NCBI GenBank assembly: GCA_031264295.1
Contig: JAISED010000038.1
Span: 1 to 36,933, forward strand
Reading direction: 5' to 3'
DNA length: 36,933 nt
DNA from: Eubacteriales Family XIII. Incertae Sedis bacterium
Lineage (GTDB): Bacteria; Bacillota; Clostridia; Peptostreptococcales; Anaerovoracaceae
Part shown: one piece after another, positions 13,864 to 36,518 of the stretch
How the letters are laid out: each line of letters begins with the position of its first letter
Position numbering within the stretch: the stretch's first letter is position 1
Notes under the pieces: generated by a model
Told to the model about the DNA's origin: nothing
Seen by the model: only the letters and a program-made list of their open reading frames with translations
Databases searched by the model: none
Made by a program: the position numbers and the translations under genes

Positions 13864-13897
13864 CCTTTTTGACCTTGATACTATCAATGTCAAAAGG
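13864..13897 (-). terminator. Hairpin at the end of the accessory operon
   Basis: Outer arms CCTTTTTGAC and GTCAAAAGG and inner arms TTGATA/TATCAA form a long near-perfect hairpin overlapping the Hsp70 stop codon. It is followed on the minus strand only by a short A/T-rich tract, so it may end transcription or protect the 3' end. It marks the downstream limit of the 23 kb minus-strand cluster. Confidence 0.55.
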
Positions 13898-17195: not shown

Positions 17196-18383
17196 CTATT
17201 TGGCTTTAGCAAGTTCCACCTCTGCCTTTTCAAGTACTATATTTTTATACTCAAATCCAATCTTCACGACTTTAGTTATCTTTACACCCAGAGTTGCTGA
17301 ACAGCCCGGCGCCGCCTTATGTTTTTTAGGGGCAAATGGCTTTCCGATATCGTTTATTACCGTGACTCCAAGTCTTGTAAGCGATTGCTCAACATGCGCC
17401 AAGAAGTTTATACTGCTGCCGATTAAATTGTAATAGCTATCTTTATTTTTGTCGTCCGGATGGTACTTCAATGTTTCACTTACCAATGAAAACAGTAATA
17501 TAAATTGCCTAATCGCCTCCTGTAATATCTCATAGTTGATCCCATCACGTATTGACATAATTTCCTGTAGTTCATTCTGCAAAGACAACTGGAGCTTTTC
17601 GATCCGTTTCGACAGGGCAGCATCATCTGCACGCCGGTCTTCGGCATATTTATTTAGTTTTTCGGTCAATTCCAGATCGTGAGTTTGAATAATAAGCTCA
17701 GACGCCTTTGTTTTTAGGGTTTCTTCAGCTTTCGGGACTCCATTGACTCCTTGAGTTCCTTCAACTTCCGCCGTCACCTTGGTTTTTGAGTCTCCCGCTG
17801 ATTTTTTGTGTTCCTCTGTCTTTTGCAGTCTCTCGGTTTTGGACGCTTCATTGATATTTTGAATTTCCGCTGCTTCGTCTGTCTTGATTTTTGACTGTGT
17901 CTCATTAACGCTTTTAACAGGTACTGCTATTGTCCTCTTGATATTTTCATCTAAAAGCTGCAACATCCCTTTTAGCCATTCAATATTTGGGCTGTTGTTA
18001 TTAAATGTACTACTGTCAAAGGTATACTGTTGGTAATTTAATCTATACAAACGTCTGCACTCTTCAAATCCCGCTGAAAAGTACATATTGAGTCCATCAA
18101 GGATAGGCAATAGATCGAAATAAGTCCTTTGTGTATTCAAATCCTCATAATCTATATTGAAATTTGTGGCTTCAACACGAATCTTATTTACTGAACAAAG
18201 CCAGGATAATAATGTCGACTCTTTATTCTTGATAAGTTCACAGAACATCATACATATTATTTGGATATAATAGGATTCTAAATCAGGAGACGTACCGTAG
18301 CCATAGCGCCGCAGATTTTTAATATATGACTCCTTAGAGCGGCAGGCCACTTCGTAAAGCTGTTTGCTGTCTGTTATACTCAT
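17196..18383 (-). CDS. GrpE-like protein with an extra N-terminal domain and coiled coil
   Basis: The ATG at 18383 is used because GGAGGT lies 5 nt before it. Residues ~1-140 are an unrecognised helical domain, followed by a charged repetitive linker and a coiled coil (EKLNKYAEDRRADDAALSKR region). The last ~110 residues have the GrpE pattern: a long helix, then SLTRLGVTVINDIGKPFAPK with K-HKA after it, then VVKIGFEYKNIVLEKAEVEL. This corresponds to GrpE 'LxxxGVxxIxxxGxxFDPxxHxA...VxxxGYxxxxxxLRxAxVxV'. GrpE releases ADP from Hsp70, which fits the Hsp70 two genes downstream. The N-terminal domain could place it at the cluster's complex. GrpE identity is by pattern only. Confidence 0.65.
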   Translation of the reverse strand: MSITDSKQLYEVACRSKESYIKNLRRYGYGTSPDLESYYIQIICMMFCELIKNKESTLLSWLCSVNKIRVEATNFNIDYEDLNTQRTYFDLLPILDGLNMYFSAGFEECRRLYRLNYQQYTFDSSTFNNNSPNIEWLKGMLQLLDENIKRTIAVPVKSVNETQSKIKTDEAAEIQNINEASKTERLQKTEEHKKSAGDSKTKVTAEVEGTQGVNGVPKAEETLKTKASELIIQTHDLELTEKLNKYAEDRRADDAALSKRIEKLQLSLQNELQEIMSIRDGINYEILQEAIRQFILLFSLVSETLKYHPDDKNKDSYYNLIGSSINFLAHVEQSLTRLGVTVINDIGKPFAPKKHKAAPGCSATLGVKITKVVKIGFEYKNIVLEKAEVELAKAK

Positions 18384-18491
18384 GTTTACCTCCATTTCGC
18401 CGCATTGCAGCGGTATAAATTCGTTATAGAACATAGAACTACGATTTTATTTTTGCATTTATACTCAACTCAGTATTGCGCCTCGCCCGTG

Positions 18492-20171: not shown

Positions 20172-21702
20172 CTCCTCCCTCTTGCTGCATGGGTTTGTAC
20201 GGATCTACGCCCTGTGAGTCCGCACTATGTGATTCAGGTTGCTTTTGAAAGGTTTCAAGCCGCGTTTGAAGTTTAGCGGCCTTTTCCTCTTGCATTAGAG
20301 CTTGCGCTTCCGCTTCCTTGCTCTCATCTTCAGCCAAATGAAACCTCTGCTCTAGCTCACCGGCTTCCGATTTTGCCTTCAATAATTCTCCTTTTGCCTT
20401 TTCATTCTCCTCTCTGAACCTGTTCAAGTTTCCTTTAATGCGCGCCGTGTCCTTTGCCCTTTTTATGTTTATTGGTTTATCCCTTAAGTGTTTCAAGTCT
20501 GACTCCCTAAGGCTTGCCATCATCCCGGATTGCTCAAATTTATTCCGTAATTCAAGTTCACAGTTCTTCGCTTGTCTAAATTTGGTCTTGGCAGCCTGCA
20601 CTGCCTGTTTTTTGGCTTCGGCATCCTTTTGTACTTCGATAAGCTTTTCGTTTTCTTTATCAAACTCCGCCTGCAATGAAATGTGTCCAATCAGTTCCGG
20701 CTTTAACACTCCTACTATGCCGGCTATGGACACATCGTCCTGACTGCCCTGCTCTGCCAGTCTTTCCGTGAGTTTGAAGATTTGAGCCTTTGCGTTTTCA
20801 AAGTCGTCAGTGGCGGCAATGCTCAATATGACCGCGCGATATAGAGATTCAAGATGCTTCTCATTATCATATACCGGGTATGTGTCGTCAACGCCGTCAG
20901 TTCCGATAAAAACCGCTATCGGTCTGGTGCTCAACGCCTCGCCTCCATCTTTGTACTGCCCGTCAATGCCGTAACTATACTCGGCGAAAGTCCCGTCCGC
21001 TCTGCGAAATCCTAACCAATAACGAAATTCATTTATAGAATTGTCGTCGCAGATTGATGTCGTTGAGTTAAGGAAGCACTTGTCGTCCCACGGAATCGGC
21101 TGCTTCCACACGCCGTCCTCATACAAGGCTTCGCATTTTCCGTCGCCTATATGAAATCCAAACCAGTAATCACGCGTTATGGCTGCAGCGATAAGTGTTG
21201 TTCCATAAGCGTGACAAAAGTACTGATGGTTCGGATCGTTAAGATATCGATCCTTATACTTGTCTTCGAGACTTGCTATTTTGTCATCCTCTGATATAGG
21301 ATCAGCGCATTCATCCTCCGCGACGCGGGTGAACCACGAAGAAATGACATGTCTCACCAGACGATCGAGGACTTTCTTGCCACCGCCGTTAACAAAGACC
21401 TCAGGTACGCCGATGTTTTGCCGGATAAATTCCCTAATCCCCTCAAGTGTCACCTCGACCGCTATTTTAGAACCCCTGTCACTGCGAAAATACTGAGGAC
21501 TTCCATGACCGTCGGCAACAACGGCAATGCTCATCTCCCCACTACTATCGGTTTTTTTAGCCGAATCGGCGCTGTTATCCGGCGCGGCGTCTTGCCTAGT
21601 TATGCAGCCACTGCTATCCAGCGAAGCGTCTTGGCAAGGAAGCTCGCTTTTTTTATGGCTTACTCCTTTTGCACTATGTGAAAACGAACGAAATTCTCCC
21701 AT
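20161..21702 (-). CDS. PP2C-type protein phosphatase with C-terminal coiled coil
   Basis: Ser/Thr phosphatase of the PPM fold. Metal and catalytic motifs are present: VVADGHGSPQ, GTTLIAAAITRDYWFGFHIG followed by DG, FIGTDGVDD and SQDDVSIAGIVGV. The last ~180 residues are a long charged coiled coil with EKENEKLIEVQKDAEAKKQA-like heptads. A low-complexity insert (SGCITRQDAAPDNSADSAKK) interrupts the N-terminal region right after the CQDA motif normal for this group, repeating the theme of in-frame inserts in this genome. Together with the vWA gene and the kinase upstream it makes the kinase-vWA-PP2C trio ('TerY-P triad') known from tellurite/conflict-type systems. It is expected to reverse phosphorylation by the kinase. 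Confidence 0.88.
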   Translation of the reverse strand: MGEFRSFSHSAKGVSHKKSELPCQDASLDSSGCITRQDAAPDNSADSAKKTDSSGEMSIAVVADGHGSPQYFRSDRGSKIAVEVTLEGIREFIRQNIGVPEVFVNGGGKKVLDRLVRHVISSWFTRVAEDECADPISEDDKIASLEDKYKDRYLNDPNHQYFCHAYGTTLIAAAITRDYWFGFHIGDGKCEALYEDGVWKQPIPWDDKCFLNSTTSICDDNSINEFRYWLGFRRADGTFAEYSYGIDGQYKDGGEALSTRPIAVFIGTDGVDDTYPVYDNEKHLESLYRAVILSIAATDDFENAKAQIFKLTERLAEQGSQDDVSIAGIVGVLKPELIGHISLQAEFDKENEKLIEVQKDAEAKKQAVQAAKTKFRQAKNCELELRNKFEQSGMMASLRESDLKHLRDKPINIKRAKDTARIKGNLNRFREENEKAKGELLKAKSEAGELEQRFHLAEDESKEAEAQALMQEEKAAKLQTRLETFQKQPESHSADSQGVDPYKPMQQEGGDDA

Positions 21703-21786: not shown

Positions 21787-22539
21787 TTACCAGATATCAT
21801 CGTCATCCGCGTCGGCGCTGTCTGCTGCCTCAATCTTAAAGTTGTTAAGTTCGGCGATGAAGGTGTCTTGTTTGTTCTCTTCGTAGTCGCCGTCGCCGAC
21901 ATTAGCGCTCTTGCTGGCGACCTCAGAAGCCCTGACAGTGACGAATTTAACATGCTTTCGCAGCATTTTGGGGTTACGTGCTTCAAGCACCGCCTCGGCA
22001 TTTCCAACAAACTCTTCAAGAACAAATTTGTCTGCGTCCTCGCCGATAGCCACGGCTACCTTTATTGCCTTCTTGAACCAGTTGTTCTGTTTCAAGGCAT
22101 CCAAGCCTTTATTATAGTCGTCTGTTGGACCGCCGTCAGAGAGCAGGAATATCACCGGGGCAAACGATCCTGTAGCTGCCTTCATAAAGCCTTTACCGAC
22201 CGACAATGCCTCGTTTAACTTACTGCAAGCATCACCGAGATCTGTTACACCGCTGGCGTCCATATCGTTCCATATGAAGTTCTCAAGTTCAATAGGACCA
22301 TTAGGCGTGAGCCACTGCGCTCCCGAAGCAAATTCGAGTACGGCGATTTTGAGCTGCGCATCCGCATTTTTATCCGCCACATCCTTCAGTAAAGGGATAA
22401 TTTCTTCTATGACGGAGTTGACCGTCCCTATTTTGGAACCCATCATACTGCCTGATGTATCCACTACAAGGAAGAGCACCATTGTTCTGCGCGGAATGAC
22501 GAAAGTTTCGAGAATATCCATATTTGCATCATTGCTCAT
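21787..22539 (-). CDS. TerY-like vWA domain protein
   Basis: A single von Willebrand A domain with an intact metal site (MIDAS): DTSGSM, the threonine of GVTDLGDACSKLNE, and the aspartate of LSDGGPTDDY. This is the TerY/YegL pattern. The 250 residues end in an acidic tail (DSADADDDDIW). vWA proteins of this kind bridge the kinase and phosphatase partners or sense metal/ligand. It stands between the kinase (18 bp away) and PP2C (84 bp). A second copy with a broken MIDAS sits at 31027-32013 and is closely similar over its length, so one arose from the other by duplication. Confidence 0.9.
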   Translation of the reverse strand: MSNDANMDILETFVIPRRTMVLFLVVDTSGSMMGSKIGTVNSVIEEIIPLLKDVADKNADAQLKIAVLEFASGAQWLTPNGPIELENFIWNDMDASGVTDLGDACSKLNEALSVGKGFMKAATGSFAPVIFLLSDGGPTDDYNKGLDALKQNNWFKKAIKVAVAIGEDADKFVLEEFVGNAEAVLEARNPKMLRKHVKFVTVRASEVASKSANVGDGDYEENKQDTFIAELNNFKIEAADSADADDDDIW

Positions 22540-22557: not shown

Positions 22558-23853
22558 TTAATTTCCGACGATCTCGGCAATCAAGTTTTTGCCGAAATTT
22601 ATGCTTAATCCGCTTGCGATTTTAAGGACTTCGCCCTTAGCCCTCGGCGCCTGCACACCGTCAGCTCCCGTTACATACCAAGTAACATCAGAGAGATTTC
22701 TGATGCCCATGTTGCCTGGATTGTTCTTGCTTACAATCACCTCGGCGGTGGATGTTTTAAAGTCTTCACTGTCACTGACTGTGTGACAGGCAAACAAGTT
22801 CATAGCCGGATACAGCGGCACGTTCAGTTTTTCGAATTTCAGGTAGGCTGGGACATTTATCTGCTTGCCGCACCTGCTGCATGTGACGCCTTTCGTCGGA
22901 TCCGCGAAGTTCTCACCGCCGCAGCTGCACGGAACTATCTCGCTCCTGAGTCGTATAAATGTTTCCAACCAAACCTTCTCCATGACTCTGGGTTCTCTGC
23001 CATGAAGCTGTTCATATCCGAAGACTTCAATGAATATATCCCGTATATACTGCGGGTATAGCGGCCATTTAGCGATCACGCTCTTGTGGATACCTCGTAT
23101 GGGTATGTTATCCTTGTTCACTGGATCGAGTATGAAGACCGGGTCAGTTCCGTAGTATTTCTTCTCCAACTCCTCCGTCAGACATGGAGGATTGGTCGCC
23201 TTACCTTCCAGCGGATGATTCCCAAACAGGAGCAGGAATAAAACGACTGCCAAAGAAAAACGATCGGTCTGCTTGTCCGGCAGTTTGTCATGTGTGACGA
23301 CCTCCGGCGCCATATAGCGGCACTTCCCGGCTATACCGGAGTTATAGCCATGTCCCATAACATTGTCGTTATCGCAGATAAGAACGTCGCCTGTATCGAA
23401 ATTAACGAAAAAGTTTCCGTCATTCAAATCTTGATAGTTGTAGCCTTCGCGATGCAGTGCGGCAAAACCCTCAACGATATTCAGCGCGGTGTTTATAAGA
23501 GTACGCAGACTTTTAAATCTGACCTTCGCCAACAAGTACTTGGAAAAATCCTCATACTCGGGTGGACGAAGCGGCATAATATACCCGAACGTCCCGTCAA
23601 GCCATTCGGTGATATCCTCCGGCCATAGAAACGCGTCAGTCGGGGCGCCGTGGTCTATGTTGTTCTTAATGTTGTCGTAGAACTTTTCGGGATTCTTCAT
23701 CTTGTTCTTGAAATACCATTTAAGAGCCTTTTGCTTCCCGCCGTAGTCCGCCTTGTAGACTATACCTTGACCTCCTTCACCCAGTTGCTCCAGCACCTTG
23801 ACGGGCACAAAACCCTTAGTCTGGATAATCTGTCCTTCCTGTAATTCGCTCAT
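22558..23853 (-). CDS. Ser/Thr protein kinase with zinc ribbon and FHA-like tail
   Basis: I start at 23853, where AAGGAGGG precedes the ATG; the frame is open 54 bp further, but those codons come from a short repeat. The kinase fold has a Gly loop (GEGGQGIVYKA), Lys of ALKWY, the catalytic loop YQDLNDGNFF in place of HRDLKxxN, and CDNDN in place of DFG. The catalytic Asp and the metal-binding residues are therefore kept, and I expect it to be active. After the kinase come a four-cysteine zinc ribbon (CSCGG...CSRCG) and ~90 residues resembling an FHA-like sandwich (NMGIRNLSDVTWYV). No transmembrane helix is seen. It belongs to the kinase-vWA-PP2C trio. Confidence 0.85.
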   Translation of the reverse strand: MSELQEGQIIQTKGFVPVKVLEQLGEGGQGIVYKADYGGKQKALKWYFKNKMKNPEKFYDNIKNNIDHGAPTDAFLWPEDITEWLDGTFGYIMPLRPPEYEDFSKYLLAKVRFKSLRTLINTALNIVEGFAALHREGYNYQDLNDGNFFVNFDTGDVLICDNDNVMGHGYNSGIAGKCRYMAPEVVTHDKLPDKQTDRFSLAVVLFLLLFGNHPLEGKATNPPCLTEELEKKYYGTDPVFILDPVNKDNIPIRGIHKSVIAKWPLYPQYIRDIFIEVFGYEQLHGREPRVMEKVWLETFIRLRSEIVPCSCGGENFADPTKGVTCSRCGKQINVPAYLKFEKLNVPLYPAMNLFACHTVSDSEDFKTSTAEVIVSKNNPGNMGIRNLSDVTWYVTGADGVQAPRAKGEVLKIASGLSINFGKNLIAEIVGN

Positions 23854-23863
23854 AATTGCCCTC

Positions 23864-23920
23864 CTTCTTTGTGTACGCTTCTTTATGTACTTACTCTTTA
23901 TGTACACTTCTTTGTGTATA
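23864..23920. repeat. Four tandem ~14-bp repeats in the kinase leader
   Basis: The plus strand reads CTTCTTTGTGTACG, CTTCTTTATGTACT, TACTCTTTATGTACA, CTTCTTTGTGTATA (positions 23864-23877, 23878-23891, 23892-23906, 23907-23920). It fills most of the gap between the ATPase gene and the kinase start, and its first copy adjoins the kinase ribosome binding site. Copy-number change here could alter kinase translation. Confidence 0.8.
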
Positions 23921-23931
23921 TTAATGTATTA

Positions 23932-25245
23932 TTAAACAAGCAGTGTATGCGCCAGCTCCTGCGTCAAGCTGTCAAATATATATACCTCGCCCGGCCGCAT
24001 CCGGTTTATCTCTTCCGGCTTGATGATGAATTCTCGTTTTATATTATAATTCGTCGTGCTGGTCGTGTTCGACCCGGGGAACAACTTAAACGGGCTTTGG
24101 TTGTACTTCCCGGTGGAATGTGCTGTAGATGTTTCCATCTTGTCATAATAGCCAATCGCCTCCGCCCACTTTGTTGCGCCGGCGCCGGATGAATGTGCGT
24201 AAAGCACTATTTTACCGCTGTTGCCTATTATAGTGTGAAATATCTTCTCTTCGCCGCCGCACATAGCGAAGACGTCCCTGCTGCATACAGTCAATTTGCA
24301 ATGTTCATTATGCATTCGTATCAAACCGGCAAACAATTCGCTGTTCTCGGTTGAAAGCTCGTCGGCGATGAATGAGACATATTTACCCTTGCCCATGGCC
24401 ATGCGAATCTGTGCGATCAGGACATTGAGCATAAGTTTATTTACGTTCGAAGTAATGTCTACCACGATAACATCTGACTCTTCTATGGTGCGCGTGATGC
24501 TTTTCCGGTCATGTGAAGTTTTGCGGCTCAATATGCCCGCAAACTGAGCCTCCAGCGACTGGAAACAGTTTTCCAACTTGTAGCGTTCAGATTGCCCTTG
24601 CATCAGCCTGGATTTGATATCCTGTCCCTTCGCGCTGTCAAACACGCCGCCGATGACAAGTCCGTCTACTTTGTTGAATAAATCCGAGTGGGGACATTTA
24701 ACAAAGGCATTGAGGCTAGGCGCCTTGTTGAGCGCCCGAATATAGGCGTTCATACCGTCGATATAGTATTTTGCGTTAGGCTTGATATCGAATTCTTTAG
24801 CCGCGGCTTCCATAATGAGCTTACTTATTTCGTTGTCTGACAAGCCTATAAACGGATCGTACATCGGGTTATTATGGTTGATCACCGTTAACCTGCCTGA
24901 GTTTGCGAATGTTATTTGAAGCATGCTCTCCAAGTCTCGATCTGCCTCGTGCAGAACAACAACGGGCATGTTGTTTACACAAGCGGCATAGGCGATGGCG
25001 CTGATCGTCTGTGAGCGCCGCCTGTTATCACCTCCCGATATGACGACATTTGTCGGCAGCGATTCGGGCAAGAAGAATCCGCCGATTTCACTGGGGCGAT
25101 ATTCTATCACCCCGCGCCCTATTTGATTTGCCTTGTCCAAGCGCTGTCTCTTAATCAATGCTGTAATTGACTTAATCACTTCCGTCATCCCTCTATACAT
25201 AACTGCGAACAGGCCGATAAACATTTTGACGAATATTCTAAACAC
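23932..25245 (-). CDS. VirD4/FtsK-like ATPase homolog with degenerate Walker A
   Basis: GTG start with GGAGGGG 4 nt upstream. A hydrophobic N-terminus (FVKMFIGLFAVMY) may anchor it to the membrane. The fold resembles its neighbour's RecA-like domain, with Walker B-like YVSFIADELS, but the P-loop position reads ISGGDNRRRSQT, with no GK(S/T). It probably does not hydrolyse ATP. A pair of active and inactive AAA/RecA-like subunits often form a mixed ring or a regulatory partner. It lies 18 bp after the active ATPase. No relaxase or other conjugation gene is present, so a role in DNA transfer is not supported. Confidence 0.65.
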   Translation of the reverse strand: MFRIFVKMFIGLFAVMYRGMTEVIKSITALIKRQRLDKANQIGRGVIEYRPSEIGGFFLPESLPTNVVISGGDNRRRSQTISAIAYAACVNNMPVVVLHEADRDLESMLQITFANSGRLTVINHNNPMYDPFIGLSDNEISKLIMEAAAKEFDIKPNAKYYIDGMNAYIRALNKAPSLNAFVKCPHSDLFNKVDGLVIGGVFDSAKGQDIKSRLMQGQSERYKLENCFQSLEAQFAGILSRKTSHDRKSITRTIEESDVIVVDITSNVNKLMLNVLIAQIRMAMGKGKYVSFIADELSTENSELFAGLIRMHNEHCKLTVCSRDVFAMCGGEEKIFHTIIGNSGKIVLYAHSSGAGATKWAEAIGYYDKMETSTAHSTGKYNQSPFKLFPGSNTTSTTNYNIKREFIIKPEEINRMRPGEVYIFDSLTQELAHTLLV

Positions 25246-25263: not shown

Positions 25264-26574
25264 CTAATACCTGTCAAAGCTGAATCGGAAGGGCTTCGAA
25301 AACGGCAACCCGACTATTGCTTCACCTACTTGCAGGCTGTTCATATCCCAGTCCTCTACCGTTGAACCCTTACGTTTTTCCTCAATTATCTCTGTATCGA
25401 ATTTTTGGTACTGTTCCAGCATGATGTTTTTTCCGAAAAGCCCGCTCACATAATCCCTTGTGGAAACATCGTTCGCTCTAAACGCGAAAAGTGTAGAAAA
25501 TCCCGCCGCTATATTCATTCCACGGCTCTTGCCGTATATCTCAAAAAGCTGCTCTATACTTTGAATGCCGGCCATGACTTTAACGCCGAGACTGCGGCCA
25601 AAGTTTACCCCATCGTCGATGTGCCTCAAATGTGGAAGCAGTTTGAACTCATCGCAAATAAGATAAACATTACCCTGCGGCTTATTACGGCCAAGCGCCT
25701 CTTTCAGCGCCAAGTCAAACATCAGTCGGTAAACAGGCGTGAGTATACTGCCGATGGAGAGGTCATACTCGATGAAAAGCGCTTTATTCTCTTTCCTTCG
25801 GACAAATTCACGAACAGAGAATCCGCCCTTATCGGCGAACACGCCTATGAATATCTCTCTCATTACCGAGAACATTTCCGATATAACGCCTTGAGATTGA
25901 GAGCCATCTCCGTCAATGTAAGAGAGCACAGCGCCCAGATCAATATGCCCTTCCAATATCCCCGCTATTTTTTCAAAGTTGCAGGAGTCCAACAAGCCTT
26001 TTAATTCCTTATTGAAAAGGTTCTCTTTTCTTAAAGCGTCGTTTTGCTTCCCTTCACGTATTATGGCAATGATAATAGCCGCCATCAAGTCGCGCGCCGC
26101 ATTGGGAAAGAAGGCGTTTGTCGTATTCTTCGTCCGTTCCTCAAAGAATGACTTACAGATTTCCTGTGTGTTTAAGACAAAGTCTTTATCCTCCCAACCG
26201 TCAGCGAGAATCTCCTTATAGATGTTCCACTTTTCGGATTTACTCGCGTACTGCCGGGAGTTACCGATGAGCAAATCGCCGGGCTTATAGAACTGTGAAA
26301 TGAAATCGCCCTTGCTGTCGAAAATTATCATCACATCGTCAAGGCTCATCGCCTTGCGAATCTGATCGACAAAGTGATAGAACAAGGTTGTTTTACCGCA
26401 TCCGGTTCCGCCCATCAACAGCATATGTTTGCTCAACTCGTCCTGCCCTATATCAAATGACGCTGGTTTGCCACACCACTTGCCTTTCAGACGAATCATC
26501 GATGAAGCGGCCTTGGCGGGTGGCGGGTTCTCGGACACGCTATTCCCATATAATAATTTGAAATTTACAGCCAT
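25264..26574 (-). CDS. VirD4/TraG-FtsK-like P-loop ATPase
   Basis: Walker A is GGTGCGKTT (Lys61), in a typical LLMGGTGCGKTTLFYHFVDQ segment. Walker B is VYLICDEFKLLP. Further coupling-protein features are VMIIFDSKGDF, ATPase core GVKVMAGIQSIEQLFEIYG with the conserved Gln, and FSTLFAFRANDVSTRDYVS. These are the T4CP/TraD signatures (TraM-recognition domain). There are no N-terminal transmembrane helices, unlike conjugative VirD4. AAGGAG precedes the ATG. I infer a motor that moves protein or DNA for this cluster rather than for conjugation. Confidence 0.85.
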   Translation of the reverse strand: MAVNFKLLYGNSVSENPPPAKAASSMIRLKGKWCGKPASFDIGQDELSKHMLLMGGTGCGKTTLFYHFVDQIRKAMSLDDVMIIFDSKGDFISQFYKPGDLLIGNSRQYASKSEKWNIYKEILADGWEDKDFVLNTQEICKSFFEERTKNTTNAFFPNAARDLMAAIIIAIIREGKQNDALRKENLFNKELKGLLDSCNFEKIAGILEGHIDLGAVLSYIDGDGSQSQGVISEMFSVMREIFIGVFADKGGFSVREFVRRKENKALFIEYDLSIGSILTPVYRLMFDLALKEALGRNKPQGNVYLICDEFKLLPHLRHIDDGVNFGRSLGVKVMAGIQSIEQLFEIYGKSRGMNIAAGFSTLFAFRANDVSTRDYVSGLFGKNIMLEQYQKFDTEIIEEKRKGSTVEDWDMNSLQVGEAIVGLPFSKPFRFSFDRY

Positions 26575-29004: not shown

Positions 29005-30984
29005 TTAAAATTTCAGATTCAGCCATATGGCGGGACGTACGCCGCCGCCTTTGAAGTCAACACCGCGACCGTCTAAGTTGAGACTGCCATCACTGCGCAC
29101 GTATACAGTGAGACCGCCGCAGTAGCCGGGTGAACGGAGCCACCACCAAGCCCATACGCCGTTTCTATATTTTAGCGCCCTCTCACTGTTGTACTCATCG
29201 TTGATGATATATCCCTTTCCGTCGTTTAGCGCTATTTTATCGTTCTCCCAATACCAGCCTTTATGGTTTGCCAAGTCGCCGCTATCTCCAAAGTATTTCA
29301 CTACTTCATCTATACTGAGCAAAAACACTTTGTCTGCCGTATCGTTACCGCCCCTTGTGCCATACCATTGGTTATTCGGGTTAGAGTGCCTGGTTTCTAA
29401 AATCACTGCTTGCTCATGGCTGTTAAATTCTCTGAAAAACTCGCCATTCAGGTATTGACGTAATGTACAGCTTTCCCAAGTCACAGGCGCTTGTTTTGCA
29501 TTATATGTGCGTCTATCAATGATGCCTTCAGTTAGCAACAACGCTCTGTCATTTCTGATTTTCAACACTCGCCATTTATATCCGCCGAAATTAATGTTGC
29601 GTCTTTCGCCTTGTCGTATCTCGTCGGCTGCGTTCATCGTAAGGCCGGATTGATGCGTGTACTTTGACAATGGCGCTTGCTGTATTTGAGTCGGCGGCGT
29701 TGGAAGCGACATTTTCAAGCGTAGCTTTTGCCGCATTTGAATCGGTAACATTGACAATGCTGCCGGTTGCTCCGTTTGGCTCAACAGCATCTGCTTCTCA
29801 ATACTCAGATTAAGCCATAAAGCGGGACGAACACCCCCCTCTTCATCAGTGACAGTGGCGCCGAGCATACCGAGGCTGCCGTCATCGTCCACGCCTGCGG
29901 CGCCGCTATTGCCGTCACCGGGCGACCGGAGCCACCACCACACCGTGTTGTTGACAAACTTCCCCACCCTTTCATTGTTGTACTTGTCGTTGATGAAATA
30001 TCCGTTCCCATCCCTTATCTCATCTTTGCTATTCTGCCAGTACCAGCCTTTACGGTTCGCCAAATCTCCGCTATCTCCAAAGTATTTCACTACTTCATCT
30101 ATACTGAGTAAAAACACTTTGTCCACCGTATCATTACCGCCCATTGCGTCATACCATTGGTTATTGGGGTTGGTATTACAGATTTCCAAAATCCCCGCTT
30201 GTTCATAACTGCTGAACTCCCCTAAAAATTCACAATTCAAATATTGGCGTAATGTACAGCTTTCCCAAGTTACATCCGCATATTTAGTATTGTAGGGACG
30301 CGTTTCAATGACATCTTCGGTCAGCAACAACGCCTTGTCGCCTTGAATATCCAAAACCCGCCATTCGTACTCGCCGAACTTAATGTTACGCCTTCTTCCT
30401 TGTATGACCTCGGCTGCTGCGCCCCTAGCAACGCCTGACTGATATGTGGTTGACCGTTGCTTAGACTGCTGTGATGATGGCAACGACAGTGACGACACTC
30501 GTTTCGGCAGCATCGGCGCCATTATTCGCTGTATCGGTGGTGGCTGTGCTGTTTGAAGTCTGCGCAGCGGCGCCTTTGAAATCGCTCGCAGAGTGTGACC
30601 CTTCACGCTTAGCTGCCAGCCAAGCGCCTCCGTGAACTCACTTATTATATTCTCTGCAGCTTCCTCTGTTATAAACGCCTCGGTTAGTTTTGCAACTGCT
30701 TGCTTAAAGGCTATTTCTTTATCCTCTTGCTCTGCATTGAGATAGTCTTGCAGGATTGCTGCTACACCCTTTTCATATACGGCGAATACAAGACTCTTGA
30801 TATTCGCCGATACCTGCGGCGCATAGTCCGGAAAGAACGCCTTTAATTGCTTACCAAGGAGTACTTCATAACCATGCTTCTGTGCAATGAAGATGAGGGC
30901 GTCTTTCGTGTTGTCGAATATTTTTGACTGCCCTTCGTCAATGTCTCTTTTTATCCCGCTCCCGCGTTTATTGTCCCGCATCAT
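29005..30984 (-). CDS. Protein D: module X followed by two lectin-like (DUF6273-type) domains
   Basis: ATGATG start with GGGAGG upstream. Residues ~25-125 are module X (FDNTKDALIFIAQKHG to FTEALGWQL). There is no N-terminal zinc ribbon. Two domains follow, each starting with RRN-NFG-Y-WRVL and ending in WWWLRSPG...GVRPA(L/I)WLNL, so they are copies of the variable lectin domain of A-C. The linker between them is Pro/Gln/Met-rich. The first copy keeps the exact flank GGT-GTT-CGT-CCC-GCT of the variable proteins; the second has drifted (GGC-GTA-CGT-CCC-GCC). Neither is followed by the hairpin of A-C, though a damaged version is visible after the second. This may be a retired or slowly varying member. 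Confidence 0.82.
   Translation of the reverse strand: MMRDNKRGSGIKRDIDEGQSKIFDNTKDALIFIAQKHGYEVLLGKQLKAFFPDYAPQVSANIKSLVFAVYEKGVAAILQDYLNAEQEDKEIAFKQAVAKLTEAFITEEAAENIISEFTEALGWQLSVKGHTLRAISKAPLRRLQTAQPPPIQRIMAPMLPKRVSSLSLPSSQQSKQRSTTYQSGVARGAAAEVIQGRRRNIKFGEYEWRVLDIQGDKALLLTEDVIETRPYNTKYADVTWESCTLRQYLNCEFLGEFSSYEQAGILEICNTNPNNQWYDAMGGNDTVDKVFLLSIDEVVKYFGDSGDLANRKGWYWQNSKDEIRDGNGYFINDKYNNERVGKFVNNTVWWWLRSPGDGNSGAAGVDDDGSLGMLGATVTDEEGGVRPALWLNLSIEKQMLLSQTEQPAALSMLPIQMRQKLRLKMSLPTPPTQIQQAPLSKYTHQSGLTMNAADEIRQGERRNINFGGYKWRVLKIRNDRALLLTEGIIDRRTYNAKQAPVTWESCTLRQYLNGEFFREFNSHEQAVILETRHSNPNNQWYGTRGGNDTADKVFLLSIDEVVKYFGDSGDLANHKGWYWENDKIALNDGKGYIINDEYNSERALKYRNGVWAWWWLRSPGYCGGLTVYVRSDGSLNLDGRGVDFKGGGVRPAIWLNLKF
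29041..29169 (-). other. Variable region D2 (degenerate)
   Basis: 27 codons between SPG and GVRP, aligned without gaps to A-C. Variable columns still end in C or T in most places, but silent changes and altered flanks show drift. Probably not an active mutagenesis target. Confidence 0.6.
29833..29961 (-). other. Variable region D1 (older, internal)
   Basis: Aligned without gaps to A-C, with the same flanks CGG-TCG-CCC-GG and GGT-GTT-CGT-CCC-GCT. It lies inside the gene rather than at the 3' end and has no hairpin behind it. Several third bases differ from those of A-C, so it is less likely to be a current target. Confidence 0.65.
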
Positions 30985-31026: not shown

Positions 31027-32013
31027 CTATTCTTCGTATCGGCTGATGTCTCTTGGCTTAATCATCTTAATCAACCTCGTGGGGTTGTCACTTCTAAGTA
31101 CTGCCTCTTTGCTTCCGGCAAACTCTTCAAGCATTGATTCATTCACTTCCTCGCCTACAGCAATAGCTACCTTGATTGCTATCTCAAACCAACGGTTCTG
31201 TTTTAATGAGTTCAAACCCTTTTTATAGTCGTCCGTCGGCTTGCTGCCGGAGATTAAGACTATCGCCGGGGCGAACGTACCAGCTATTTCTTTCATAAAC
31301 CCTTTATAAACCGACAACTTTTCGTTTAACTTACTGCAAGCGTCTCCGAAGTCGCTTGCGCCGCCGGCCTCTATATAATGCCAGAAAAAGTTTTCCGCTC
31401 TAATCGGTTCGTTGGGCGTAAGCCACTGCGCTCCCGAAGAAAATTTGAGTACAGCTACTTTGACCTGCACATCCTGATTTTCATCTTCAAGAGTCTTCAG
31501 TTCAGGGATAAATTCTTCTATTATTGAGTTAATAGTCCCTATTCGGGAACCAATCATATTGTCGGATGTATCCACTAAGAGGAATATCATGAAATTTTTA
31601 TGCGGCATGGATACAAGTTCCAACATACCCATATTTCGTGCTTCGTTCCTCGCACTCAACTGCCAGCCAAGCGCCTCCGCGAATTCACGGATGATATTCT
31701 CTGCGGCCTCTTGTGTTATAAACGCCTCGGTCAGCTTAGCAACAGCTTGTTTAAATGCTATTTCTTTATCCGCCTGCTTTGCATGAAGATAGCTTTGCAG
31801 AATTGCTGCGGCGCCATTTTCATAGACGGCAAATACCAAGCGCTTCCTATTGACTGATACCTGCGGCGTATAGTCAGGGAAGAAGGTTTTTAGTTTCTTT
31901 CCAAGAAGTACTTCACTGCCATGCTTCTGCGCAATGAAGATAAAGGCTTCTCTTGTGTTGTCAAAGGTTTTGGATTTGTCTTCATCCGTGTCTATGCCAT
32001 TGATGTGCTTCAT
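31027..32013 (-). CDS. Module X + vWA domain with broken MIDAS (F)
   Basis: The ATG at 32013 is used, with GGAGG 11 nt upstream; a TTG 18 bp earlier is an alternative. Residues ~10-120 are module X, nearly the same as in A-D. The rest is a vWA domain closely related to the TerY-like protein at 21787, but the metal site reads DTSDNM for DTSGSM, the Thr of GVTDLGD is Ser (GASDFGD), and SDGGPTDD is SGSKPTDD. It should not bind metal normally. I infer a duplicate fused to module X, perhaps acting as a decoy or scaffold linking X-bearing sensors to the kinase/phosphatase. It lies 42 bp upstream of D. Confidence 0.8.
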   Translation of the reverse strand: MKHINGIDTDEDKSKTFDNTREAFIFIAQKHGSEVLLGKKLKTFFPDYTPQVSVNRKRLVFAVYENGAAAILQSYLHAKQADKEIAFKQAVAKLTEAFITQEAAENIIREFAEALGWQLSARNEARNMGMLELVSMPHKNFMIFLLVDTSDNMIGSRIGTINSIIEEFIPELKTLEDENQDVQVKVAVLKFSSGAQWLTPNEPIRAENFFWHYIEAGGASDFGDACSKLNEKLSVYKGFMKEIAGTFAPAIVLISGSKPTDDYKKGLNSLKQNRWFEIAIKVAIAVGEEVNESMLEEFAGSKEAVLRSDNPTRLIKMIKPRDISRYEE

Positions 32014-32078
32014 TACTATACATTCCTCCAATGTGGCAGCTGAGCATTCCCTTTTCAGCGGCTACACAGACTACACTG

Positions 32079-32116
32079 TTTTATAACCACTGTTAATTCA
32101 TTTTTGGAACACTCAT
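32079..32116 (-). pseudogene. Remnant of a second avd start, downstream of C
   Basis: The minus strand from 32116 reads ATGAGTGTTCCAAAAATG and continues for about 38 bp closely matching the first bases of the avd-like gene (ATGAATGTTCCAAAAAAC at 33792), including GAATTAAC and GTGGT. A one-base loss breaks the frame and the rest of the gene is gone. It shows that C once had its own avd copy, as B still does. Confidence 0.7.
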
Positions 32117-32202: not shown

Positions 32203-33402
32203 TTAAGATTTAAGATTCAGCCATAAAGCGGGACGAACACCGCCGTAATCGTTGTAGACAAGGCTGCCGAGCACGTCGAGCCCGCCGTCATTGTGCACGT
32301 TCGCCGCGCTGATACCGTTGTAGCCGGGCGACCGGAGCCACCACCACGCCCCCACATTCCTGTATTTTGCCATCCTTTTATCGTTGTATTGATCCCTAAT
32401 AATCCACATTCTTTTGCCGCGCAGATTCTCCAGATTCCCACTATCTCCAAAGTATTTTACTACTTCATTTATGCTGAGCAGAAACACCTTATCCACTGTA
32501 CTTTCGCCGCCCTTTGTTCCATAGAATTGGTTATTTGGGTTGGCATTCCTCGTTTCTAAAATCTTCGCTCGCTCCTGCCTGCTGAACGTATTAAAGAACT
32601 CGTCATTCAGGTACTGACGTAAAGTGCAGTTTTTCCATGTCACATCCTCATCTTGGACATTGTACGGACGTTGCTCAATGATGTCTTCAGTCAGCAATAA
32701 TGCCTTGTCTCCCTGAATATCCAGCACCCGCCAGCTATATCCACCGAACTTTATGTTACGCCTTTTGCCTTGTCTAATCTCGGCGGCAGTACCCGTAGCG
32801 GCATCTGATTTGTATGTAATATTCGACCCTTGCATAATCTGCACTTGCGGTTGAACTGATTGTTCTGTTTGGTTCAACGATGTTTGCGCCGTTTTCTGTT
32901 GTCCCGTTTGAGTTGATGCCGTTTGGTGAAGTACTGACTGCGTATTAGCTTGTTGTGGTTGCCCGCCCGTGCCCACCTTCCAACCAAGTGCCCCTGCAAA
33001 CTCGCGTATAATATTCTCCGCCGCATCCTGCGCTATAAACGCCTCAGTCAGCTTTGAAACAGCTTGCTTAAATGCCGTCTCTTTATCCGCCTGCTTTGCA
33101 GCAAGGCAACTTTGCAGGATTGCTGCGGCGCCTTTTTCATAAACCGCGAATACCAAGCTCTTAATATTTTGATGCATCTGCGGCGCGTAATCAGGTAAAA
33201 ACGCCTTTAGCTTATTTCCAAGAAGCACCTCGGCACCATGCTCCTGTGCGATGAATATAAGAGCCTCTTTTGTATTGTCAAAGGTTTTATGCTTGTCCCC
33301 ATTCCCTTGAACAAGGCGCTCACCGCAAAATGGACAGGAAACAAGCGACGCCGATATGCGCCTGTCGGTTTCCCATTTGCTCTTGCACTTATTACATATC
33401 AT
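32203..33402 (-). CDS. Variable protein C: zinc ribbon + module X + lectin-like domain with DGR-type variable region
   Basis: Start ATG with AGGGAGGG upstream. N-terminal zinc ribbon (CNKCKSKW, SCPFCGERL), module X (residues ~38-145), a Gln/Thr-rich linker of about 60 residues, then the lectin-like domain (NIKFGGYSWRVLDIQGDKAL, FLLSINEVVKYFGDSGNLEN, WWWLRSPG). Ends GVRPALWLNLKS. No TM helix. The last 27 codons before GVRP differ from A and B in the DGR manner (see the variable-region entry). The lectin fold of this type (FGE/C-type-lectin-like) is the usual DGR target fold and would display a variable binding face. It is separated from avd by 27 bp. Confidence 0.88.
   Translation of the reverse strand: MICNKCKSKWETDRRISASLVSCPFCGERLVQGNGDKHKTFDNTKEALIFIAQEHGAEVLLGNKLKAFLPDYAPQMHQNIKSLVFAVYEKGAAAILQSCLAAKQADKETAFKQAVSKLTEAFIAQDAAENIIREFAGALGWKVGTGGQPQQANTQSVLHQTASTQTGQQKTAQTSLNQTEQSVQPQVQIMQGSNITYKSDAATGTAAEIRQGKRRNIKFGGYSWRVLDIQGDKALLLTEDIIEQRPYNVQDEDVTWKNCTLRQYLNDEFFNTFSRQERAKILETRNANPNNQFYGTKGGESTVDKVFLLSINEVVKYFGDSGNLENLRGKRMWIIRDQYNDKRMAKYRNVGAWWWLRSPGYNGISAANVHNDGGLDVLGSLVYNDYGGVRPALWLNLKS
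32239..32367 (-). other. Variable region C
   Basis: Between SPG and GVRP the residues read YNGISAANVHNDGGLDVLGS and then LVYNDYG. Codons differing from A and B are almost all NNC/NNT; invariant codons carry no A. A short variable stretch KYRNV precedes WWW. Flanks are identical to those of A and B. Confidence 0.88.
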
Positions 33403-33429
33403 ATGACTTTCCCTCCCTAATCTCTCCGG

Positions 33430-33792
33430 TTATCTTGTGTATCGGCGACTTATCATTAATAATGATGTGACATAGCCTGATAACCTGTCGAGAGCGAAAT
33501 GCGTTCCCTTTTGCGTCATCGCCATCTCCGCAAAGTAAGCGAGGATTTTCAGCGATGTCAGCGCTTTATGCTGGAAATCCAGCCTCTTTTCCGGATCACT
33601 TTGAGTTCCTCTTCCTATCAGCACCTCATTCGCCCTGTAAATATTCTCAACGATGTCCATCGCTAAATTCTGCATGCGGCTCACGAGGGTAAAACGGAAC
33701 TGCTTGGGCGACTTCTGCGTCACAGTTATGACATATGTGCAGATGTCCTTTGCTTTCATGACCACGGTTAATTCGTTTTTTGGAACATTCAT
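33430..33792 (-). CDS. avd: Avd-like DGR accessory protein (four-helix bundle)
   Basis: 120 residues, with AGGTGA upstream of the ATG. It is built of four helices with DGR Avd motifs: KAKDICTYVITVTQKSPKQF, then SRMQNLAMDIVENIYRANEV, RLDFQHKALTSLKILAYFAE, and a final basic helix (YVTSLLMISRRYTR). This pattern (KxxxxYVxxVTxxSPKxFRFTxxxRxQNL) is the four-helix-bundle family that in DGRs binds the reverse transcriptase and template RNA, and it is basic as expected. In standard DGRs avd lies between the variable gene and the template repeat or RT; here it stands between two variable genes with no RT beside it. I am fairly sure of the family, less sure that it works with a distant RT. Confidence 0.85.
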   Translation of the reverse strand: MNVPKNELTVVMKAKDICTYVITVTQKSPKQFRFTLVSRMQNLAMDIVENIYRANEVLIGRGTQSDPEKRLDFQHKALTSLKILAYFAEMAMTQKGTHFALDRLSGYVTSLLMISRRYTR

Positions 33793-33823
33793 CTCAATAT
33801 CACCTCATCTCAAAATTTTCATG

Positions 33824-33863
33824 GCCGCCTCCGGCGGCAATGGCGATTTCGCCTTCGGCGAAA
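33824..33863 (-). other. Post-variable-region hairpins of B
   Basis: TTTCGCC-GAA-GGCGAAA (33847-33863) and GCCGCC-GGA-GGCGGC (33824-33838), right behind the stop of B. Both are perfect stems. Same arrangement as for C; A keeps only the first. Confidence 0.65.
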
Positions 33864-33876
33864 CAGATTAAGAGAT

Positions 33877-34995
33877 TTAAGATTTTAGATTCAGCCATAA
33901 AGCGGGACGAACACCGACGTGTCCGCAGTCGACACTGAGGCCGCCCATGATGAGTTCGCCGTCAGTGAACACGTGCGCCGCGTCGCCACTGTTGTGGCCG
34001 GGCGACCGGAGCCACCACCACGCCCCTTCGTCCCCGCACTTTGCCATCCTTTCATTGTTATACTGGTCGTTGATGTAATAGCCTTTCCCATCTTTTAGTT
34101 CAAATTTATTGTTGCGCCAGTACCAACCTTTATGGTTTGCCAAATCCCCGCTGTCGCCAAAGTATTTCACCACTTCATCTATGCTAAGCAGAAACGCCTT
34201 ATCTGTTGTTCTTTTGCCTCCATTTATGCCATACCATTGATTGTTTAGGTTGGTGTTCGTAGTTTCTAAAATCATTTCTTGCTCCTGGCTATTAAACTTA
34301 CTTAAGAACTCACCGTTCAGATACTTGCGCAAGGTGCAACTTTCCCAAGTCACGTCCATGTAATCTGTATTGTAGGGACATTTCTCAATGATGTTTTCGG
34401 TCAGCAGCAATGCTTTGTCCCCTTGAATATCCAGCACCCGCCATTTGTATCTGCCAAATTTGAGGTTACGCCTTTTGCCCTTTATAATCTCGCCGGCTGC
34501 ACCCGTAGCGGTACCTGATTTATGTGAAGGCTTCAGCGAAGTCGATTGCTGCGTTTGACCCACCGCACTCAACTGCCAGCCAAGCGCTTCCGCGAACTCA
34601 CGGACGATATTCTCCGCTGCGCCCGGCTCGACAAATGCCTCGGTCAACTTAGAAACAGCTCGTTTAAATGCTATTTCTTTATCCGCCTGCTTTGCATTGA
34701 GATGATTCTGTAAGATCGACGCAGCGCCATTTTCATAGACGGAAAACACCAACTTCTTAATGTTCATTGATACCTGCGCATAATCAGGGAAGAATGCCTT
34801 TAGTTGCTTTCCAAGAAGCACCTCATTGCCGTGCTTCTGCGCAATGAATATAAGAGCATCCTTCGTATTATCAAAGGTTTTGGGCTTGACTTCGTCCGCT
34901 TGAGCAAGACTTTCCCCGCAAAACGGACAAGAAACAAGTGACGCCGATATGCGTTGGTCTGTTTTCCATTCGCTCTTGCACTTATTACATATCAT
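33877..34995 (-). CDS. Variable protein B: zinc ribbon + module X + lectin-like domain with DGR-type variable region
   Basis: Start ATG with AGGAGG upstream. Zinc ribbon CNKCKSEW/SCPFCGESL, module X, a short linker, then the lectin-like domain (NLKFGRYKWRVLDIQGDKAL, FLLSIDEVVKYFGDSGDLAN, WWWLRSPG), ending GVRPALWLNLKS. With 372 residues it is the shortest of the three because its linker is short. It has no TM helix. The variable region differs from A and C at most A-containing codons. B is followed by hairpins and then the avd-like gene, the classical variable gene-avd order. I infer it binds variable ligands through the C-terminal face, with zinc ribbon and module X signalling inward. Confidence 0.88.
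   Translation of the reverse strand: MICNKCKSEWKTDQRISASLVSCPFCGESLAQADEVKPKTFDNTKDALIFIAQKHGNEVLLGKQLKAFFPDYAQVSMNIKKLVFSVYENGAASILQNHLNAKQADKEIAFKRAVSKLTEAFVEPGAAENIVREFAEALGWQLSAVGQTQQSTSLKPSHKSGTATGAAGEIIKGKRRNLKFGRYKWRVLDIQGDKALLLTENIIEKCPYNTDYMDVTWESCTLRKYLNGEFLSKFNSQEQEMILETTNTNLNNQWYGINGGKRTTDKAFLLSIDEVVKYFGDSGDLANHKGWYWRNNKFELKDGKGYYINDQYNNERMAKCGDEGAWWWLRSPGHNSGDAAHVFTDGELIMGGLSVDCGHVGVRPALWLNLKS
33913..34041 (-). other. Variable region B
   Basis: Residues between SPG and GVRP: HNSGDAAHVFTDGELIMGGL then SVDCGHV. The invariant codons are GCG, GCG, GTG, GGC, CTC, GGC and GTC, none of which contains A. The variable stretch KCGDE precedes WWW. Confidence 0.88.
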
Positions 34996-35090
34996 ACGGT
35001 CCTCCTGTCATGTGGCACTTTCCCTCATCTCAAGATTTTCGTACCCACCTCCAGCGACGTGCTTGTTTCCATCTTCGGCGGCAAGGTCGA

Positions 35091-35107
35091 TTTCGCCTTC
35101 GGCGAAA
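35091..35107 (-). other. Post-variable-region hairpin of A
   Basis: TTTCGCC-GAA-GGCGAAA, just downstream of the stop of A, on the minus strand. The second hairpin of B and C is damaged here (only one arm, GCCGCC, remains). Confidence 0.65.
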
Positions 35108-35120
35108 CAGATTAAGAGAT

Positions 35121-36518
35121 TTAAGATTTTAGATTCAGCCATAAAGCGGGACGAACACCGCCGCGATCGTAGAGGACATTGTAGCCGCTCAAGAGGAGTA
35201 CGCCGACATTGCTCACGTGCGCCGCGTAGTCACTGTCGAAGCCGGGCGACCGGAGCCACCACCACGCCCCATCATCCTCGTACTTTGCCACCCTTTCATT
35301 GTTGTACTGGTCGCTGATGTAATATCCTGCTCCATCTCTTAGTTCATATCCCTCGTTCCCCACATACCATCCTTTACGGTTTGCCAAATCGCCGTTGTCA
35401 CCAAAGTATTTCACTACTTCATCTATGCTGAGCAAAAACACCTTATCCGTTGTACTGTTGCCTCCATCTGTGTCATACCATTGATTTTTTAGGTTGGTGT
35501 TCGTGGTTTCTAAAATCATTTCTTGCTCCTGACTACTGAACTTATTTAGGAACTCACCGTTCAGGTACTTGCGCAAGGTGCAGCTTTCCCAGGTCACATC
35601 CACATACTCTGTATTGTATGGACATCTCTCAATGACATCTTCAGTCAACAACAACGCCTTGTCACCTTGAATATCCAGCACCCGCCAGTCATATCCGCCG
35701 AACTTAATGTTATGCATTCCGCCTCCTAGAATCTCAGCGATGGCCTTGTCTACGCTCCCATCCATCTCAACGATGGTGTCAGTGTCGCTACTTGCCTCAG
35801 CGTCGGCGTTTGTATCATTGTTTAACTTATTATGTGTAAACAAGCCCACCACCAACGCCAGCGCCACTATCAGAATCAATACCGGCGCCAGCGCCTTCCT
35901 CCCCTGCTGCTTGTTCGGCAATGGCGGTGGCGATGGCGATAGCGGCGACTTCGTTGACTGTGACTGTGATTGCGATTGCTTGCTCTGTGGCTGCGGCTGT
36001 GCTTTAGTCTGCGCTGTTTGTAACTGTATCGCCGCTGTTTCCGGCTGCAGCGCCTGTTGAACATCTTGCTGCGCTTTACCCGCCGCACTCAGCTGCCAGC
36101 CAAGCGCTTCCGCGAACTCCCGAACGATATTCTCCGCTGCGTCCTGCGCGACAAACGCCTCGCTCAACTTCGCAACAGCCCGCTTAAATGCTATTTCTTT
36201 ATCCGCCTGCTTTGCATTGAGATGGCTTTTCAGGATTGACGCGGCGCCCTTTTCGTAGACGGCAAATACTAGGCTCTTCCTATTCGGCGACACCTGCGGC
36301 GCATAGTCATGAAAGAACGCCTTGAGCTTCTTTCCGAGCAGCACCTCATTGCCGTGCTTCTGCGCAATGAATATAAGAGCATCTTTTGTATTATCAAAGG
36401 CCTGGGGCTTGTCTTCGTCCGCTTGAGTAAGCCTCTCCCCGCAAAACGGACATGAAATAAGCGACGCCGATATGCGCCTGTCGGTTTCCCACTTACTCTT
36501 ACACTTATTACATATCAT
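35121..36518 (-). CDS. Variable protein A: zinc ribbon + module X + TM helix + lectin-like domain with DGR-type variable region
   Basis: TAGGAG lies 9 nt before the ATG. Zinc ribbon CNKCKSKW/SCPFCGERL, module X (residues ~38-145), a Gln/Ser/Pro-rich linker, one TM helix (VLILIVALALVVGLF, about residues 213-230), a short acidic segment, then the lectin-like domain ending GVRPALWLNLKS. A is the only membrane-anchored member. The hydrophilic lectin domain would be outside and zinc ribbon/module X inside, making it a plausible receptor. The variable region follows the same rule as B and C. It is the first gene of the cluster. Confidence 0.88.
   Translation of the reverse strand: MICNKCKSKWETDRRISASLISCPFCGERLTQADEDKPQAFDNTKDALIFIAQKHGNEVLLGKKLKAFFHDYAPQVSPNRKSLVFAVYEKGAASILKSHLNAKQADKEIAFKRAVAKLSEAFVAQDAAENIVREFAEALGWQLSAAGKAQQDVQQALQPETAAIQLQTAQTKAQPQPQSKQSQSQSQSTKSPLSPSPPPLPNKQQGRKALAPVLILIVALALVVGLFTHNKLNNDTNADAEASSDTDTIVEMDGSVDKAIAEILGGGMHNIKFGGYDWRVLDIQGDKALLLTEDVIERCPYNTEYVDVTWESCTLRKYLNGEFLNKFSSQEQEMILETTNTNLKNQWYDTDGGNSTTDKVFLLSIDEVVKYFGDNGDLANRKGWYVGNEGYELRDGAGYYISDQYNNERVAKYEDDGAWWWLRSPGFDSDYAAHVSNVGVLLLSGYNVLYDRGGVRPALWLNLKS
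35157..35285 (-). other. Variable region A
   Basis: Between SPG and GVRP: FDSDYAAHVSNVGVLLLSGY then NVLYDRG. Compared codon by codon with B and C, 20 of 27 codons vary. All differences can be derived from A in a common template. Confidence 0.88.

Follow-up and report, generated by a model that had tools for sequence, protein, structure and literature searches.

How does a bacterial contig come to hold three neighbouring genes that differ at most codons of one short C-terminal segment and agree in nearly every third base of it? The genes lie on contig JAISED010000038.1 of an uncultured Eubacteriales Family XIII. Incertae Sedis bacterium (Clostridia; Anaerovoracaceae; assembly GCA_031264295.1), which at 36,933 nucleotides forms, in its entirety, the stretch analysed here and is called the window below; the assembly comprises 2.79 Mb in 88 contigs and is 86% complete. 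An original prediction, made from the letters of this DNA alone, saw in the three genes the adenine-specific signature of a diversity-generating retroelement (DGR), in which the variable repeats (VRs) of target genes answer to a template repeat (TR) and are served by a reverse transcriptase (RT). With a probability of roughly 90% we hold that the VRs of the three targets, A, B and C, were written by a DGR from one A-rich template, and that the adjacent copy of this element is broken, its avd gene being cut at codon 94 and joined to a fragment of the RT. The locus is thus a DGR target set with a broken core and not an intact DGR.

Realignment confirmed that the 27 codons separating the residues SPG from GVRP are free of gaps in all three targets. 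Read in gene order, they are:

35160..35240, minus strand: VR of target C, 27 codons between SPG and GVRP
33916..33996, minus strand: VR of target B, 27 codons between SPG and GVRP
32242..32322, minus strand: VR of target A, 27 codons between SPG and GVRP

Seven of these codons (GCG GCG GTG GGC CTC GGC GTC) do not change between the targets. Of the 20 that do, 18 keep their third base, all except codons 14 and 25, and the flanks CGG TCG CCC GG and GGT GTT CGT CCC GCT are the same in A, B and C, all as first described.

The TR of this genome is missing, and TRs of relatives stood in for it. A scan of genome contigs for relatives returned 79 loci, five of which (L089, L092, L097, L101 and L118) present a DUF6273 gene, the family of the targets, and then matches to Avd, TR and RT in that order; the TR is in each of the five a second, A-rich copy of the VR near the DUF6273 gene. 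Some aligned lengths are partial (25 residues of Avd in L089, 217 of RT in L118), and a full-length RT frame is present in L092, L097 and L101. The 10.1 kb contig of L089 (BNUF01000079.1) carries the same open reading frames (ORFs) mirrored on both strands with the RT breaking near the centre, a self-inverted repeat that is probably an assembly artefact. Within the family of the window genome, G058 possesses Avd, TR and RT, and the repeats of two of its DUF6273 genes differ from the TR only at template A's (24 of 24 differences in the best windows).

Compared with these TRs over 87 ungapped columns, A, B, C and a further target of the same genome, F on contig C55, vary at 25 columns, 24 of which are A in the L092 TR, as against three of the 62 invariant columns (Fisher 4.1e-17). 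Taken alone, A, B and C give Fisher values of 1.8e-11 to 6.2e-16 with the five independent TRs, and across the five TRs and both sets the range is 4.1e-17 to 3e-11. The claim that all differences can be derived from a template A thus holds nearly throughout. Position 2 of codon 27, with G in A and C and T in B (GTGGG once F and a VR remnant on C55 are added), is A in no copy and is probably an ordinary substitution. Position 1 of codon 1 is A in all five relatives' TRs and in none of A, B, C, F and the remnant; position 3 of codon 14, like position 2 of codon 27, counts as an exception or an ambiguous case for the confinement to adenines. Drift-like changes in third bases were looked for and the opposite was found: third positions of A, B, C and F are 94–97% identical inside the VR and 56–77% identical in the preceding domain, and first and second positions show the reverse, agreeing less within the VR than in that domain. 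The adenines of the relatives' TRs and this third-position contrast together support the adenine-directed diversification that had been proposed.

The repertoire extends beyond the window. DUF6273 occurs at ten places in the assembly, six on the window contig (C73) and four on C55, and 60 of 96 columns are invariant in the five VRs of A, B, C, F and the remnant C55:1423-1518, which keeps the signature. A further target on C55, G, fits the same template with a gap of one codon and no mismatch at the compared columns; three paralogous domains, D1, D2 and H, show 9, 15 and 12 mismatches at the 60 template columns, respectively. Because these 60 shared columns are without mismatch, the six VRs on two contigs seem to have been copied from one template, and judging from the same columns F and G were very likely rewritten by such a DGR as well. 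The non-A columns of the six VRs look undrifted since copying. The VR motif had no match in five fetched stretches of the genomes G001 and G055.

What marks a gene as a target? An exact inverted repeat, TTTCGCC-GNA-GGCGAAA, occurs five times in the 2.79 Mb assembly, each time 3' of a complete target (A, B, C, F and G), and a single copy with one mismatch exists elsewhere. In the window the hairpins, located by exact sequence match, are:

35091..35107, minus strand: hairpin 3' of target C, TTTCGCC-GAA-GGCGAAA
33847..33863, minus strand: hairpin 3' of target B, loop GAA
32173..32189, minus strand: hairpin 3' of target A, loop GGA

All five begin 37 nt past the shared GGT-GTT-CGT-CCC-GCT, and their loops are GGA, GAA, GAA, GCA and GTA. 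As single-stranded DNA each hairpin folds at -6.6 kcal/mol, a value equalled by 0 to 7 of 200 shuffles each, and GNA triloops in DNA tend to be exceptionally stable. No hairpin follows D1, D2, H or the C55 remnant; the proposal that every VR lacking a hairpin also lacks the signature was rejected, as the remnant keeps it. Across the family, a stem of at least 7 bp within 110 nt follows 15 of the 86 DUF6273 C-termini that end at a stop close by (identical sets of 40 downstream bases counted once, which drops C, and TR copies included), so that the mark is not universal; outside the window genome the triloop is GNA in four of eight cases. L100 and L108, two loci of one metagenome-assembled genome (WRLV01), have DUF6273 genes on separate contigs with similar hairpins of 11-bp stem and loops AAA and GTA, possibly a second instance of several targets per template.

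A counterpart is the hairpin of phage DGRs, which has a GC-rich stem of 7–10 bp and a 4-nt GRNA loop, stands 4–34 bp 3' of the VR and is required for efficient homing in Bordetella phage BPP-1 (PMC3240598). The BPP-1 element shares with the window A-directed VR variation, Avd and a hairpin of 7-bp stem behind the VR, and the loop of the window hairpins keeps the first G and last A of the phage loop (PMC3240598). The present locus differs in being bacterial, in having several targets at two places and a broken core, and in its 3-nt GNA loop, its stem with 4/7 G+C and its spacing of 37 nt (PMC3240598). By analogy, the slightly more distant triloop hairpin would be a variant of the phage target mark.

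Fragments of a DGR core lie between and behind the targets:

33511..33792, minus strand: avd, first 94 codons, C-terminus missing (57% to L092 Avd in an alignment of 97 aa)
33469..33510, minus strand: KGTHFALDRLSGYV, a scrap of a DGR reverse transcriptase that continues the avd reading frame (by alignment to relatives' RTs)
32079..32116, minus strand: second avd stub after target A, about 13 first codons, frame shifted (by nucleotide homology)

The ORF 33430-33792, which consists of Avd residues 1-94 and the RT scrap, is the sole Avd match in the genome, and it separates B from A; the original description of three tandem proteins is right in that the three ORFs are neighbours on the minus strand but overlooks this broken avd-RT ORF. 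Its avd part matches phrog_3206 ("Avd protein of DGR") at 52.6 bits and falls under the cut-offs of PF22296 (27 of 40 bits) and NF033474 (36 of 80 bits). An intact Avd between B and A was ruled out because homologues stop aligning near residue 94, the alignment ending at residue 96 or before in 118 of the 119 Avd homologues listed (158 found). The residues that follow are very likely an RT fragment, to judge from their alignment: the K-G-T-H-F of the scrap is invariant across four aligned RTs, its score was never reached by 2000 shuffles for four of five RTs, and of the 7460 27-mers from window ORFs of at least 60 aa, five scored at least 50 against the L101 RT, all overlapping and starting at 33516-33552. 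A tract of ~124 nt after A is moreover homologous to the stretch running from the end of B into avd (score 159, compared with 28 for the best of 300 shuffles).

A DGR core would once have stood here, since a truncated avd is fused to an RT fragment in the window. Between the points corresponding to the junction, L092, L097 and L101 have ~0.8–1.0 kb with the Avd C-terminus, the TR and the start of the RT. The course of events that we propose is that one A-rich template was copied with errors at its A's into the VRs of the targets; that one or more deletions, of ~0.8–1.0 kb if the relatives are a guide, took away the end of Avd together with the TR and the first ~110 residues of the RT, the remainder of the RT being lost as well; and that rewriting either ceased recently or continues in trans through an RT and TR in unassembled DNA. 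These last two courses suggest themselves because the template columns are undrifted.

Several observations weigh against this account. The DGR RT and the ~130-bp TR that were expected somewhere in the genome were looked for and not found in this 86%-complete assembly: neither the RVT_1 profile nor an L092 protein query (the latter without a positive control) detected an RT, and no further A-rich VR-like pattern was found. The profile does detect a DGR-type RT in G018 of the same family. The RT scrap measures just 14 residues, with a tblastn E of 0.014 over 57 kb, and against the L092 RT its score was reached by four of 2000 shuffles. The C55 remnant has the signature without the hairpin, so that the two coincide in five of six cases; the spacing slightly exceeds, and the loop falls short of, those of phages. 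In G001, a 71%-complete genome and the one other member of the genus examined, DUF6273 occurs at a single place, there is no RT, and the fetched contig is without the VR motif. The missing RT and TR are nonetheless not a simple refutation, given that 14% of the genome is estimated to be absent from the assembly and that the avd-RT fragment lies in the window. As to candidate templates, C24:95273 in G000, which matches the VR pattern with one mismatch, was ruled out since it is not A-rich; such one-mismatch matches also occur in six other genomes.

Could the pattern have arisen with no retroelement, by ordinary diversifying selection or by gene conversion between paralogues? Paralogues within one genome are able to convert each other, but conversion would even out all codon positions, whereas in the VR positions 1 and 2 are less and position 3 more alike, and the variable columns coincide with adenines of foreign TRs; we regard this explanation as highly improbable. 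A somewhat larger, still small, probability attaches to the targets being receptor-binding proteins of a phage or prophage. The DUF6273 targets of DGRs in gut phages (PMC11792537, PMC10743442) lend it some colour, as does a 44-bit match of the DUF6273 part of B to phrog_10993, a Hoc-like head decoration. It is opposed by the zinc-ribbon-like and helical N-termini of the targets, by a Pfam scan of 18 window proteins that showed no structural gene of a phage (the remaining ORFs were read by eye only) and by the lack of any relative of the window Avd in viral contigs, in a single-protein query that reaches close relatives only.

Given DGR writing, which we regard as close to certain, and a core in cis that is very likely broken, the present state of the system admits two accounts. 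Diversification may be ongoing, with an intact RT and TR outside the assembly writing the targets in trans and the local core a dead copy. The 60 template columns are free of mismatches in six VRs spread over two contigs, although third positions of A, B, C and F differ by 23–44% before the VR; the assembly is fragmented and incomplete; a complete set is present in G058; and trans writing of degenerate loci is described in Thiohalocapsa (PMC10907252). The assembled part, on the other hand, yields neither RT nor TR, and we give continued writing a little less than an even chance. Alternatively the only core was local and its recent deletion ended all rewriting, leaving the VRs as ordinary genes that will drift. 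In its favour, avd is present in the window as two degraded copies, one of them with the RT scrap, and hairpin-less paralogues that miss template columns exist already (D1, D2 and H seem drifted); against it, six copies are undrifted, so that the loss would have to be very recent. A frozen repertoire, too, stands just short of even odds.

What then do the targets encode? The proteins with DUF6273 domains and a neighbour related to them are:

35121..36518, minus strand: target C, zinc-ribbon-like N-terminus, helical domain, hydrophobic segment (membrane-like, by eye), DUF6273 (PF19789, 134.5 bits)
33877..34995, minus strand: target B, zinc-ribbon-like N-terminus, helical domain, DUF6273 (PF19789, 126.5 bits; CLec matches)
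32203..33402, minus strand: target A, zinc-ribbon-like N-terminus, helical domain, DUF6273 (PF19789, 133.3 bits)
31027..32031, minus strand: helical N-terminal domain fused to vWA (PF00092; the helical part is a copy of repeat D2)
29005..30984, minus strand: paralogue D, two DUF6273 domains (D1 and D2), hairpin-less, 9 and 15 mismatches at 60 template columns
18492..20171, minus strand: paralogue E, PDC-S60-like N-terminus (TIR-like by eye), helical domain (by eye), DUF6273 without signature

Three of these DUF6273 domains, two in 29005-30984 and one in 18492-20171, were absent from the original prediction; that of E differs from the template at a glance. The helical domain corresponds to a repeat (repeat D2) in five copies, common to A, B, C, D and the vWA protein 31027-32031. 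DUF6273 is a C-type-lectin-like domain and a known DGR target in phages (PMC11792537, PMC10743442), and the C-type-lectin fold suggested at the outset is predicted for the targets from PF19789, an AF2 model of B (mean pLDDT 91) and CLec matches; Foldseek by itself gave one match at E ≤0.001. Two strands of the model fall within the VR, and the model is consistent with the variable residues forming a ligand-binding face.

Past the targets, on the same strand, follow the helical/vWA protein, paralogue D, three genes without assignment and an operon-like run. The run comprises, in order, an ATPase, the gene 23932-25245, a kinase, a vWA protein, a PP2C phosphatase, E with its DUF6273, a GrpE-like protein, a protein with a membrane-like segment and an Hsp70, the members other than E and the membrane-like protein being:

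25264..26574, minus strand: VirD4/TraD-class ATPase (PF10412; mad8, 42 bits)
23932..25245, minus strand: gene between ATPase and kinase, no match in Pfam, NCBIfam, PADLOC or PHROGs
22558..23907, minus strand: Ser/Thr kinase whose C-terminal part has a stretch with four Cys (PF00069, 60 bits; mad6, 51 bits; Cys read directly)
21787..22539, minus strand: TerY-like stand-alone vWA protein (PF00092)
20161..21702, minus strand: PP2C-type phosphatase (PF13672, 82.5 bits)
17196..18434, minus strand: GrpE-like protein (PF01025, 32.7 bits)
13890..15389, minus strand: Hsp70-family protein (PF00012, 190.5 bits; 55% to the copy in L134)

The vWA, PP2C and kinase-ribbon set is known as the TerY-P triad (PMC11090510), and its components are present together here, vWA, PP2C and kinase by profile, the ribbon cysteines and gene order as read directly. 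Hsp70/GrpE and kinase/PP2C/vWA sets are counted among predicted conflict systems in PMC7159879; for MADS there are weak PADLOC matches only, mad6 (51 bits) and mad8 (42 bits). In Enterococcus sp. 669A (L134) the kinase, vWA, PP2C, a helical-domain/DUF6273 protein, GrpE-like protein and Hsp70 stand in matching order, and because this order is kept the DUF6273 protein seems native to the operon. The helical domains of E and of the Enterococcus protein are related by eye. Three database proteins (P0273, P0274 and P0303) combine a protein kinase and DUF6273 among their listed Pfam domains; the longest contig of P0273 equals in length (39025) that of P0132, an Avd homologue.

A sensory role suggests itself because the helical domain is fused to the adjacent vWA and a DUF6273 protein stands within the operon. 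On binding a ligand, perhaps phage or a foreign protein, the lectin-like targets would signal to a switch made of kinase, vWA, PP2C, GrpE and Hsp70, and we put it at about even odds that the diversified proteins serve as interchangeable sensors for the neighbouring phosphorylation switch. Counting against it, the argument draws on which genes are neighbours and which domains they share; matches to the kinase, vWA and PP2C queries came from two of the 79 relatives' loci (L099 and L134), where DUF6273 adjoins the kinase set but neither TR nor RT was seen. Among the loci examined, DGR targets are paired with this operon in the window only. More tentative, and in our estimation rather unlikely as a whole, is the wider scheme of a multi-locus library of retroelement-written lectin sensors, with no fewer than five targets spread over two loci and the helical domain as their connection to the TerY-P/Hsp70 switch. 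In this antibody-like repertoire, an RT and template located elsewhere would write in trans the targets bearing the GNA hairpin, and those that lost it would become fixed sensors.

Among known systems, the tentaclins of gut phages and the targets of Faecalibacterium prophages share DUF6273, a VR at its C-terminus and a CLec-like fold with a VR beta-hairpin (PMC10743442, PMC11792537). Those targets are phage proteins, some with Ig-like or tail-fibre-like parts (PMC10743442, PMC11792537), whereas the window proteins have zinc-ribbon/helical or PDC-S60-like N-termini and adjoin signalling genes. The complete and degenerate DGR loci of Thiohalocapsa PB-PSB1 are the closest published picture found: CLec targets are associated with predicted conflict systems that have vWA, TIR and kinase domains, and VRs match a distant TR at all non-A sites (PMC10907252). 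They differ in serving MoxR/VMAP and STAND systems of multicellular bacteria (PMC10907252), in contrast to the kinase/vWA/PP2C/GrpE/Hsp70 genes, Clostridia and DUF6273 met with here. With the TerY-P triad and the GAP1-N2 themes the operon shares a kinase with C-terminal ribbon, PP2C, stand-alone vWA and Hsp70 with GrpE (PMC11090510, PMC7159879); it differs in that the scanned proteins included no recognisable McrBC/CoCoNuT part or GAP1-N2 GTPase and in that DUF6273 proteins stand inside and beside it. No tie of DUF6273 to TerY-P was found in the literature examined, which covers few subscription papers; nor did that literature offer this host group, a DUF6273/TerY-P/Hsp70 setting, a triloop as target mark or a scar of the avd-RT type.

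If the account holds, retroelement-diversified sensors would extend to Clostridia and to a kinase/phosphatase/Hsp70 operon. A single genome offers a series of template-matching targets with a hairpin, a matching remnant without one and paralogues with neither, through which the rule that a target consists of VR plus hairpin, and also the coupling of a diversified lectin to a phospho-switch, become directly testable. The locus also displays the appearance of a DGR after loss of its core, and surveys that start from the RT would miss such loci.

Elsewhere in the window, a tandem array of period 54 (3.4 copies, 3850-4034) lies inside the end of a reductase-like ORF (1896-4187) and gives protein repeats of 18 residues. 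A second array, of period 39 (2.8 copies, 10486-10593), lies inside ORF 10119-11891, which we take by eye to be ammonium-transporter-like with a PII-like C-terminal part after the array. The habitat of the host Clostridia may be the gut, a guess drawn from their relatives.

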